IMG/VR virus record: IMGVR_UViG_3300022074_000456
Coordinates: 1 to 21,033 of that record
Source of the DNA: a virus
Strand: one strand, 5' to 3'
DNA length: 21,033 nucleotides
Both the position numbers and the translations under genes were made by a program. The notes beneath the pieces were generated by a model. That model was not told the origin of the DNA. It did not search any database and saw only the letters and a program-made list of their open reading frames with translations. Below, in pieces: positions 5,523 to 21,033 of this stretch. Numbering within the stretch: the first letter of the stretch is position 1; every line of letters starts with the position of its first letter.

Positions 5523-6644
5523 ATGCTAAAAGTAACTAAAAGAACTGATAGAAATTCATGGTACGTTTGTGAACGTGCCATAGGTGGTGGTCGTAAATTT
5601 TTTAAATGTGAATTAGAAGCTAAAGCTCATGCAGCATCTAGATGGCAAGAGTATTTAAAAGATCAGTATATACCAACTACTGTATCAGGATATAAAGGCA
5701 TAGCTGAATGGTATGCTTATCAAAAAACTAGATACACACAAGGAGAGTTTCTAAGACAAGAGTTAAGACACAAAGAAAACATTGCTGAAAAATTTGCAAA
5801 GATTATTGTGCAAGGTAAAACTATAGAACAATGGGATCTAGACAAACTTGTTACCCATCCAAGAAGTCCTGCTTCTATATCGCAAGAAATAATATCTCAG
5901 GTATTATCAATGGACATATCACACAAAACAATGAAGGGGTTATACTACTCGTACAAAAATATATTTACTTTTTTTCATGAGAGAAAGTGGACACATGAGA
6001 ACGCAATAGGTTCTACAATGTTTCCAAAACAAAAACATGGAGCAGAGGATAATAAAGCTATTCGTATATCAAAAGAAAATATAGAGAAGATAATCAGTTA
6101 TGCTAAACCAGAATACAAACTTGTAATAAAGTTTGCTGCATTTACTGGTTTAAGACAAGGCGAGTTGAGAGAGTTGCGTTGGAAGGATATAAACTTTGAG
6201 AACAACACAATTACTGTATCAAGAAGTATACAATTGTTTGGAACTATTGGTCATACAAAAACTAAAAATGGTCAGAGAATAGTTCCTCTAGTTCCTAGTA
6301 TAGCACAAGAGTTAAAAGAACTTTGTATGGCTACTGGTAGACCTGATGATAATAAATTAGTATTTGTTGGAAGAGATGGTAAAAGAATATATGGTCAAAC
6401 TCTTAGAGATAATTTAGATACTGCTTGTTTACTAGGTAAGGTAGCTAGAATAAAATGGCATGACCTTAGACACTTCTATGCTTCTATACTTTTACAAACA
6501 TACGGAGATGACTTGCATAAAGTAACTAGTTTTATGGGGCATGGTTCTATAGAGATGACTAGAAAAGTATATGGTCATTGGCTAGATGATAAGAAGCGTA
6601 ATGCAGAAGATGCAGCAAAACTAGATGCAGCATTTACTCTTTAA
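5523..6644 (+). CDS. int: Tyrosine-family site-specific integrase
   Basis: 373 aa, normal length for a lambda-type integrase. An arm-binding-like N-terminal region (1-60) is followed by a core-binding helical domain (about 60-170) and a catalytic domain (about 175-373). The catalytic set is visible: R211 in TGLRQGELRELRW, K246 in HTKTKNG, H313 and R316 in HDLRHFYAS, H340 in MGHGSIEMT and nucleophile Y350 in KVYGHW. It would cut and rejoin attP and the host tRNA attB. AGGAGG at 5512-5517 supports the start at 5523. The promoter overlaps a repressor operator, and the gene lies directly beside attP. Its 3' end overlaps the convergent leftward operon by 11 bases. Confidence 0.95.
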   Translation: MLKVTKRTDRNSWYVCERAIGGGRKFFKCELEAKAHAASRWQEYLKDQYIPTTVSGYKGIAEWYAYQKTRYTQGEFLRQELRHKENIAEKFAKIIVQGKTIEQWDLDKLVTHPRSPASISQEIISQVLSMDISHKTMKGLYYSYKNIFTFFHERKWTHENAIGSTMFPKQKHGAEDNKAIRISKENIEKIISYAKPEYKLVIKFAAFTGLRQGELRELRWKDINFENNTITVSRSIQLFGTIGHTKTKNGQRIVPLVPSIAQELKELCMATGRPDDNKLVFVGRDGKRIYGQTLRDNLDTACLLGKVARIKWHDLRHFYASILLQTYGDDLHKVTSFMGHGSIEMTRKVYGHWLDDKKRNAEDAAKLDAAFTL

Positions 6645-9132: not shown

Positions 9133-9843
9133 CTAAGTAACGATAATTTTCATATCACAACATTTAAGAGATTGAACTGCCATAACAACGTGAGATGCCC
9201 ATTCTATTTGTACGGGGTTAGCATCCTGAGAACTAGTAACATCATAAGGATTAAGCATAGTATATGTTTGGGTATAAGATAAACTGATATTAAAATCCTT
9301 TGGTGGTGCGTTTGGAAACAACACACACATTCTTATATCACTACTATCTTTAACTTTAGCCACACACAATCCTCTGAAAGAACCTTCTGATATTTTCTTT
9401 TCTTCCATAGGAAGTTTACTAACAAACATAATCCTGCCCTTTTTCCAATCATCATAACTAGCATCATCAGGATATTGAAAGCCTACTAAGTTATCTGGTA
9501 ATCGCATAGTAGTTCTAGCTATCTTAGTCTCTAATCCCGGCCATGAGTGAACATGGTGTTTATTATCTATCCAACCTCGAATAGATATATCTTGATGCTT
9601 CTCACGCCTTGATAATACCTTATCTAAACCAAGCATCTCAGCATAGAAACGATCTGGCTCTACTTCTAGTATTTTAGCGTAAGCATCTGCATCATCTCTA
9701 TTTACCTGTGTTCTACCATTCATGTGCCTAGAAACAGTTTCAGGTGTACACTTAACTAACTTAGCTAATTTCTTACCTGATATGTTCTTATCTGCTGCTA
9801 GTTTTTTTAGAATTGTACTCATCTCTTCTGCATTCACAACCAT
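9133..9843 (-). CDS. Phage repressor (CI-like), HTH plus degenerate S24-like domain
   Basis: 236 aa. Residues about 6-57 form an HTH_3 domain: MSTILKKLAADKNIS, KKLAKLVKCTPETVSRHMNG and DADAYAKILEV. The C-terminal part (about 85-236) has the layout of an S24/LexA-type dimerisation domain (IRGWIDNK...LVGFQYPDDAS..DWKKGRIMFVSK), but the catalytic GDSM serine motif and a clear Lys partner are absent. The ATG at 9843 with GGAG eight bases upstream is chosen over an in-frame TTG at 9882. That TTG belongs to the promoter -35 box. It is divergent from the Cro-like gene and should bind the 17-bp operators at 5468, 9907 and 14899. It is likely the lysogeny repressor. Confidence 0.8.
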   Translation of the reverse strand: MVVNAEEMSTILKKLAADKNISGKKLAKLVKCTPETVSRHMNGRTQVNRDDADAYAKILEVEPDRFYAEMLGLDKVLSRREKHQDISIRGWIDNKHHVHSWPGLETKIARTTMRLPDNLVGFQYPDDASYDDWKKGRIMFVSKLPMEEKKISEGSFRGLCVAKVKDSSDIRMCVLFPNAPPKDFNISLSYTQTYTMLNPYDVTSSQDANPVQIEWASHVVMAVQSLKCCDMKIIVT

Positions 9844-9854
9844 TTTATTCTCCA

Positions 9855-9882
9855 ATTCTACGTTATCATTAAACAATGTCAA
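9855..9882 (-). promoter_or_regulatory. Repressor promoter (PRM-like), close to the start codon
   Basis: On the minus strand TTGACA (9882-9877), a 16-bp spacer and TAGAAT (9860-9855) make a strong promoter for the repressor. Transcription would start near 9848, about five bases before the ATG at 9843, so the transcript would be almost leaderless, as for lambda cI from PRM. The -35 box equals one operator half-site, but no second half follows. The full operator at 9907-9923 lies 25 bp upstream of it. Confidence 0.55.
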
Positions 9883-20140: not shown

Positions 20141-20183
20141 AATTTACAGAAGATCGTAAAGTAAGATAAGCGAAAGCCCTTAC

Positions 20184-20244
20184 CGGTAGCACCGACAGCT
20201 AAAGGTGATTAACCTTAAATATAGAAGTGTCCTGCGAAAGCAGG
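20184..20244 (+). other. Three-hairpin leader between scaffold and capsid genes
   Basis: The 153-bp gap 20141-20293 contains CGGT-AGC-ACCG (20184-20194), AAGGT-GATTA-ACCTT (20202-20216) and CCTGC-GAAA-GCAGG (20231-20244, GNRA tetraloop), then an AT-rich stretch and AAAGGAG (20280-20286) for the capsid. The T-rich bases after the last hairpin (TTTGTTTTCTT) start ten bases on, so it could be a weak terminator. Transcript processing or a stable 5' end for the highly expressed capsid mRNA is more likely. Confidence 0.45.
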
Positions 20245-20293
20245 GTAGCAATTTGTTTTCTTAATATTATTAACTATTACAAAGGAGAGCGTT

Positions 20294-21033
20294 ATGAGTA
20301 CGCAAATTACAACAGCTTTTGTAAACCAGTTTAGCAGCAACATTACCATGTTAAGTCAACAAATGGGTTCTCTATTAAGAGAAGCAGTTGATGTGGAAAG
20401 CGTTACTGGTGAGAAAGCTTTTTTCGATCAAGTAGGTTCAGCGACTGCACAAGTCAGAACCTCAAGACATGGTGATACTCCGTTAATATTAGCGGCCTAA
20501 GTAAGTAATTACTTTTGAAAAATTCGGTTAATTCAGGGAAACTCTCTAGTAGACAATCCTGAGCCAAGCCCTTATAGGGAAGGTGCAACGACTATCCAGA
20601 AATGGAGTAGAGATCAAGCGATTTCGAAAAGCCGAACATCCTAATAGGATGATGATATAGTCTTATCTTGCAGGCAACTGTAAGCAGCGAAAGCGGAGAA
20701 AGTTAGCGACTTTCTTGAAAGTATTGTAATGGAAACACCACACGCTAGAAGAATGGTAACAATGGCAACTTATGAGTATGCTGATTTAATTGACGATCCA
20801 GATAAAGTCAGACTACTTGTAGATCCAACTTCAACTTATGCAAGAGCAGCAGCGATGGCTTTAGGGAGATCCATTGATGATATTATTATATCAGCCGCAA
20901 CTGGTTCTGCTAGCACAGGTAAAGCTGGAACAACATCCACAGCACTACCATCTGGACAGAAGATTGTTCATGCAAGTGGTGGTCTAACTAAAGCAAAACT
21001 AATATCTGCTAAGAAGATATTTGATCAAAATAG
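20294..21033 (+). CDS. Major capsid protein, split by a group I intron, 3' end outside window
   Basis: Exon 1 is 20294-20483 and exon 2 is 20727-21033, still open at the window end. Exon 1 contains MSTQITTAFVNQFSSNITML, REAVDVESVTGEKAFFDQ and RTSRHGDTPL. Exon 2 contains METPHARRMVTMATYEYADL, IDDPDKVRLLVDPTSTYARA and AMALGRSIDDIIISA. Joined, they give RHGDTPL-METPHARR, matching the R-x-x-DTP-x-(I/V/M)-(D/E)-TPH-x-RR pattern I know from T7-like marine podovirus capsids. Unspliced RNA would give only 68 aa, ending at TAA 20498-20500. Codon 64 (TTA) is split after its first base. Confidence 0.88.
20484..20726 (+). ncRNA. Group I self-splicing intron (243 nt), no internal endonuclease
   Basis: Conserved core: P = TTCAGGGAAACT (from 20532), Q = AATCCTGAGCCAAGCC (20555-20570), R = AGGTGCAACGACTA (20581-20594), S = GATATAGTC (20654-20662). 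P4 is TCAGG/CCTGA and P7 is GACTA/TAGTC. Hairpins follow at 20637-20651 (P8-like), 20667-20684 (GCAA loop, P9-like) and 20697-20715 (perfect 7 bp). Splice sites follow from the guide: exon CCGU pairs with GCGG (20492-20495) with the U.G wobble at the junction, and AUUA (20488-20491) pairs with 3' exon UAAU (P10). The intron ends in G20726. No ORF of useful length lies inside. Confidence 0.92.

Follow-up and report, generated by a model that had tools for sequence, protein, structure and literature searches.

The major capsid gene of a marine phage is very probably interrupted by a functional IA-type group I intron that lacks an endonuclease gene, lies between the first and second bases of codon 64, belongs to a set of introns at nine sites in this one gene, and has been passed between diverged phages. 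This reading comes from comparing sequences with a stretch of 21,033 bases of an IMG/VR virus record (hereafter the window), whose 3' end falls within the capsid gene. Without an endonuclease gene, a group I intron is commonly seen as a dead end or a passenger. The capsid gene of these marine phages appears to be a place where introns land that spread with no DNA-cutting enzyme of their own. Within this one short gene for a structural protein there is a large natural collection of introns that have gained sites, moved between phages and perhaps in some cases been lost precisely. Near-identical pairs of intron-bearing and empty alleles, together with ectopic introns at matching targets, make endonuclease-free movement testable in a protein gene. 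For annotation, about a quarter of the capsid records examined are split by introns and will be called broken genes.

The Interrupted Capsid Gene

The capsid frame that opens at ATG 20294 stops at an in-frame TAA (20498-20500) and resumes at 20727, as the first-pass annotation of this DNA had described. The gene is divided as follows:

20294..20483, + strand: capsid exon 1 (PF19821), from ATG 20294; residues 1-63 and the first base of codon 64; ends in CCGU (20480-20483)
20484..20726, + strand: group I intron (RF00028), 243 nt, IA-like, no ORF; last base G20726; junction taken from empty-site homologues
20727..21033, + strand: capsid exon 2, from the second base of codon 64 and extending past the window end; matches phrog_3437 residues 69-168

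Exon 1 matches residues 3-67 of phrog_3437 ('major head protein'), and both exons match the same family (phrog_3437, PF19821), one as capsid residues 1-64 and the other from residue 65 onward. Exon 2 contains no further intron in records L002 and L003, and in L002 it continues in one piece to residue 286. The 3' exon begins with UAAU (20727-20730), and joining CCGU-UAAU (the hyphen marks the junction) gives a predicted ligated RNA that reads ...ACUCCGU-UAAUGGAA... The joined exons, GAT ACT CCG TTA ATG GAA ACA (D T P L M E T), match the empty homologues and restore the RHGDTPL-METPHARR motif of the PF19821 capsid, which bears out what the first-pass annotation expected of splicing. The intronless homologues that it suggested seeking exist in dozens of IMG/VR relatives, in which site 64 is empty exactly at the insertion point of the window. 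Among 80 IMG/VR capsid loci, most are uninterrupted and read RHGDTPL-METPHARR or near variants, and insertions exactly there are confined to a minority. The window allele is found again in L002, L003 and L004 at 99.9-100% identity (four independent assemblies including the window), which rules out an assembly artefact.

The intergenic region upstream of the gene (20141-20293) was considered as a related structured RNA and rejected, since Rfam gives no match up to E 1 and the fold z is -1.3. Elsewhere in the window, 5523-6644 and 9133-9882 encode a tyrosine integrase and a Cro/C1-type HTH protein. The structural genes resemble those of HTVC010P-type pelagiphages, yet a lysogeny module is present; the integrase has only distant phage relatives (<26% identity among the matches listed).

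Anatomy and Covariation of the Site-64 Intron

A cmscan search of the window places a match to RF00028 at 20474-20684 on the + strand (102.0 bits, E 8.9e-26, model positions 1-253), well above the gathering score of 50. The covariance search that the first-pass annotation had proposed thus agrees with its claim of a group I core, as do the covarying helices P3-P9. The guide AUUAGCGG lies at 20488-20495, where that annotation had put it, and is complementary to CCGU-UAAU, with P1 and P10 both paired. The G.U pair that it described at the 5' splice site is U20483.G20492, and the final intron G that it noted is G20726. The paired elements are:

20480..20495, + strand: P1, exon CCGU and UA with UAGCGG; U20483.G20492 wobble at the 5' splice site; compensatory change between exon and guide
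20488..20491, + strand: P10 guide AUUA, pairing with 3' exon UAAU 20727-20730; 93% of cells paired, modest covariation
20499-20504 / 20509-20514, + strand: P2, compensatory in 5 of 6 pairs
20523-20529 / 20630-20636, + strand: P3, compensatory in 5 of 7 pairs
20533-20537 / 20558-20562, + strand: P4 (P and Q elements, with P5 and P6; RF00028 and covariation)
20543-20545 / 20551-20553, + strand: P5
20563-20565 / 20582-20584, + strand: P6
20590-20594 / 20658-20662, + strand: P7 (R and S; guanosine-binding helix), all cells paired, 1 of 5 pairs compensatory
20595-20598 / 20603-20606, + strand: P7.1, subgroup IA marker (five compensatory pairs together with P7.2)
20610-20615 / 20620-20625, + strand: P7.2, subgroup IA marker
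20637-20642 / 20646-20651, + strand: P8, from the pairing alignment
20667-20673 / 20678-20684, + strand: P9, from the pairing alignment
20687-20688 / 20693-20694, + strand: P9.1
20697-20703 / 20709-20715, + strand: P9.2, which aligns poorly to B-type introns

The strands of P7 form the P3-P7 pseudoknot, and the intron fold is more stable than all of 200 shuffles (z -2.8). Covariation was examined in an alignment of the eleven introns at site 64 against a proposed structure of 71 pairs. Standard pairs make up 94.6% of cells, and 27 of the 71 pairs are compensatory, with covariation in P3, P2, P9, P8, P7.1 and P7.2 and weak covariation in P10. None of 500 shuffles reaches the observed pairing, sliding the partner strand comes nowhere near it either, and RNAalifold independently yields nearly the same structure. 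The most telling compensation reaches across the splice border, where exon CCG faces guide GCGG in the window and CCA faces GUGG in L035 and L036. With P7.1 and P7.2 both present and covarying, the intron can be classed as group I and IA-like on its predicted structure, and the introns of phage Twort align to it. An exact match to 31 bases of its core occurs in introns of other genes (L114, L115, L119, L120, L122, L123, L124 and L126), on viral contigs that look unrelated.

The absence of a homing gene stands: the intron has only 243 nt, and its longest stop-free stretch is 41 codons. An intron-borne or degenerate endonuclease is ruled out by this length together with the stop codons. The first-pass annotation also remarked that the length is a multiple of three. 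This is due to chance and was rejected as a functional hint, since site-64 introns measure 240, 241, 243, 245, 246 and 247 nt.

The capsid transcript would fold the P3-P9 core, P1 would hold exon CCGU on the guide strand UAGCGG with the U.G wobble, and exogenous guanosine would cleave after U20483. P10 would align UAAU, and ligation would free the 243-nt intron to give full-length capsid mRNA. We infer these steps from the anatomy and covariation of the intron. The other reading of the interruption is a decayed intron or programmed frame break, with two proteins made from ATG 20294 and ATG 20729 and no splicing, and the in-frame ATG near the start of exon 2 speaks for it. This is most improbable, since the core is intact and covarying with compensation between exon and guide, exon 2 of most other alleles does not open at a start codon, and the two pieces are parts of a single capsid domain.

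Introns at Nine Sites in Related Capsid Genes

Group I introns are present in 41 of 154 capsid records (38 when the population of the window is counted once) and occupy nine sites, at residues 43, 51, 61, 64, 65, 84, 106, 202 and 275. Twenty-five alleles carry one intron, four carry two, eight carry three and one (L140) carries four. All nine sites share a U as last exon base, a G as last intron base and a guide whose pairing to its own exon includes the U.G wobble. Compensation between exon and guide also occurs at site 43 (GCGU with GCGC versus GCUU with GAGC). All capsid introns (61 tallied) are 188-269 nt long, too short to hold an endonuclease gene as well. Every intron-bearing record is confirmed by the RNA model, except L003, which is cut within its intron; in multi-intron genes some single introns fall below the model cutoff, and a few were counted from the insertion itself. 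Junctions were assigned by eye for site 64 of L038 and L066, site 43 of L150 and several site-202 introns, and were read by sequence search for site 275 and some further site-202 introns.

The introns at site 202 are about 190-204 nt long, lack P7.1 and P7.2 and are 38-55% identical to the others. These short introns (L029, L005, L040, L116 and others) are of a different type and co-occur in genes with IA-like introns; they may resemble the IC3 introns of tRNA genes. In the L140 capsid gene, with introns at sites 51, 64, 202 and 275, intron makes up about half of the gene. In L148 the gene that directly follows the capsid gene also has a group I intron, at about 2670-2920 (G095:3083-3300, - strand). 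No isolate phage with these capsid introns was found among 60 of 145 INPHARED capsid records, each of which was matched in one piece; the nearest isolates among the INPHARED matches listed are HTVC010P-type Pelagibacter phages, with capsid identity up to 66%.

Signs of Spread between Phages

Introns at the same site can be 95-96% alike in genes whose exons are about 70-78% identical. The site-64 introns of L035 and L039 are 95.9% identical while their flanking exons are 71% identical (77.6% over a longer stretch), and the window and L039 share about 82% in the intron versus 69% in the exons; part of this contrast arises because third codon positions change faster than structured RNA. The distribution of introns on the capsid tree is patchy, with at least 9 changes needed at site 64 and at least 10 at site 202, and intron-bearing site-64 alleles occur in several capsid clades. 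The exons of L035 (with intron) and L034 (without) are 97% identical.

In several pairs of intron-bearing and empty alleles, differences cluster around the insertion. This was tested within 1 kb of the insertion, which avoids non-homologous ends. L048 and the empty L046 differ at 21 of 180 positions within 90 bases of the site versus 10 of 1820 far away (p 7e-16). At site 202, L040 and the empty L043 differ at 15 of 60 near versus 59 of 1576 far positions (p 2e-8), and at site 106, L179 and the empty L038 at 14 of 60 versus 66 of 1682 (p 2e-7). Among the other pairs, four are weaker (p 0.007 to 0.06) and one gives p 0.11. Such flanking tracts are left by co-conversion in td homing (PMC2988022). 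Divergence near the insertion could instead reflect selection on splicing context, or intron loss together with the flanks. Relatives show divergent flanks clearly at sites 64, 106 and 202; the window has almost no tract, only the P1 base change from CCA to CCG.

The empty relatives listed from the A clade all have CCA. The window has CCG, and over the 60 bases upstream of the site it departs from L020 at this base only, while the 100 bases downstream equal those of L007. In this comparison, the presence of the intron goes with a change of the exon base paired to the guide. At site 202 the exon end is GGU, as the guide requires, in all intron-bearing alleles, and UGU or CGU in nearly all of the empty ones. 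The empty site-202 allele of L070 has a junction equal to the spliced product of L077 (0 of 60 mismatches) and unlike its intron-free sisters L078 and L079; this is possibly a precise intron loss, or an allele that was never invaded. The comparisons reveal a homing-like spread, and in relatives the flanks resemble those left by co-conversion. The site-64 allele would have passed between diverged phages most likely via recombination during co-infection, with short exon flanks carried along. Candidates for the trigger of transfer are a trans-acting or lost endonuclease, plain recombination, and reverse splicing at the RNA level.

Search for a Homing Endonuclease

In the window and the overlapping contig G002 (overlap of 426 bases; together about 32 kb, where the genomes of relatives are about 34-37 kb), there is no match above cutoff to HNH_3, HNH, GIY-YIG, LAGLIDADG_3 or endonuclease VII. 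GIY-YIG, LAGLIDADG_3 and endonuclease VII were also not found in the intron-bearing records, and the general HNH model gave only sub-cutoff matches there. Weak HNH matches at the capsid start of G098, G107 and G108 are below cutoff and were taken as chance. A protein of 80 amino acids that matches HNH_3 occurs in five records with intron-bearing capsid genes, 5-6 kb from the capsid gene, and in 1 of 50 intron-free records, and is absent from the window and G002:

G028:22743-22823: HNH_3 protein
G098:14172-14264: HNH_3 protein
G107:12665-12757: HNH_3 protein
G116:16873-16953: HNH_3 protein
G105:6569-6655: HNH_3 protein

By the gene order of the window, this protein probably lies near the terminase, and this place suggests a packaging nuclease; the alternative is a free-standing homing enzyme. 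The first-pass annotation had supposed that the intron may be mobilised in trans or be a degenerated homing element. Homing-like spread and co-conversion-like flanks in relatives agree with the mobility in this proposal, whereas no trans-acting endonuclease of the five families was found in the window or G002 and the 61 introns are too short for a degenerate gene.

Possible Routes of Movement

Introns at different sites are closest when their 5'-exon targets agree (permutation p 8e-4, post hoc on the same data and indicative only). With the guide region excluded, introns at sites 64 and 275, which share CCGU, reach 76% identity at best; those at sites 51 and 106, which share GGCU, are 74% identical; and the site-84 intron and the intron of the next gene (L148), which share GACCU, are 78% identical. 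In a tree with other phage introns the 51 and 106 pair is supported (100/99), and in the other two pairs (64 with 275, and 84 with the next gene) the partners are nearest to each other but weakly placed. Without outgroups, site 84 groups with the next-gene intron (87/94), and grouping of 64 with 275 is not rejected (p 0.31). These ectopic introns were either placed by reverse splicing or arrived by any insertion route from which only guide-matched landings survived splicing. Reverse splicing requires four to six complementary bases, with no direct evidence for it (PMC3984707). Guide-directed reverse splicing as the means by which endonuclease-free group I introns move inside phage structural genes and from one such gene to another seems a rather unlikely reading.

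Ordinary recombination of co-infecting phages may spread intron-bearing alleles without dedicated mobility, splicing keeping the introns neutral, and this is a tentative possibility. Such phages are mosaic, the upstream flank of the window matches L020 and its downstream flank L007, and an endonuclease is unnecessary. However, the insertion-centred tracts at three sites and the at least 9-10 changes per site probably exceed what undirected recombination would give. The tracts in relatives are short and divergent and fit break repair, as would be expected if a free-standing phage endonuclease cut the empty site and the ORF-less intron were copied during repair. Both td co-conversion (PMC2988022) and collaborative homing of ORF-less introns (PMC3984707) have been described, and the 80-amino-acid HNH_3 protein is present in five intron-bearing records versus 1 of 50 intron-free ones. 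This route is nevertheless somewhat unlikely, because none of the five endonuclease families has an above-cutoff match in the window or G002, the small HNH protein is confined to some lineages in a place that suggests packaging, and one enzyme per site would call for about nine specificities.

Comparison with Known Systems

The intron of the window belongs to a known kind. A setting of many endonuclease-free introns moving in one capsid gene is apparently unreported, no report having been found among searchable open-access papers. A close parallel is mycobacteriophage LittleE (Pope et al. 2013, PMC3706429): its capsid gene has, at a single site, an 819-bp intron whose bottom strand carries a LAGLIDADG-like ORF. 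Both have a group I-like intron in the major capsid gene, an exon ending in U, an intron ending in G and intronless relatives. The splicing of the LittleE intron was demonstrated by RT-PCR and N-terminal sequencing (PMC3706429), whereas splicing in the window is predicted from sequence, and the window intron is 243 nt long, lacks an ORF and lies in another capsid family. The lactococcal phage Tuc2009, as cited in PMC3706429, likewise has a group I intron within a capsid-subunit gene; the likeness is drawn from that citation.

In Twort, the Bastillevirinae and ICP1, phage genes have up to three introns, the hosts are polymerase, terminase, tape-measure or lysis genes, types IA2 and IA3 dominate among phage introns, and endonuclease genes are present in 32 of 45 Bastillevirinae introns (PMC11878797, PMC10448857). 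The capsid set differs in having nine sites in one gene, with at most four occupied at once and none with an endonuclease. Ectopic group I introns of rDNA have been attributed to reverse splicing (reviewed in PMC3984707). Like the capsid set, they comprise related introns elsewhere at short targets complementary to the guide; the rDNA case concerns rRNA genes, whereas the capsid set occupies a protein-coding phage gene.
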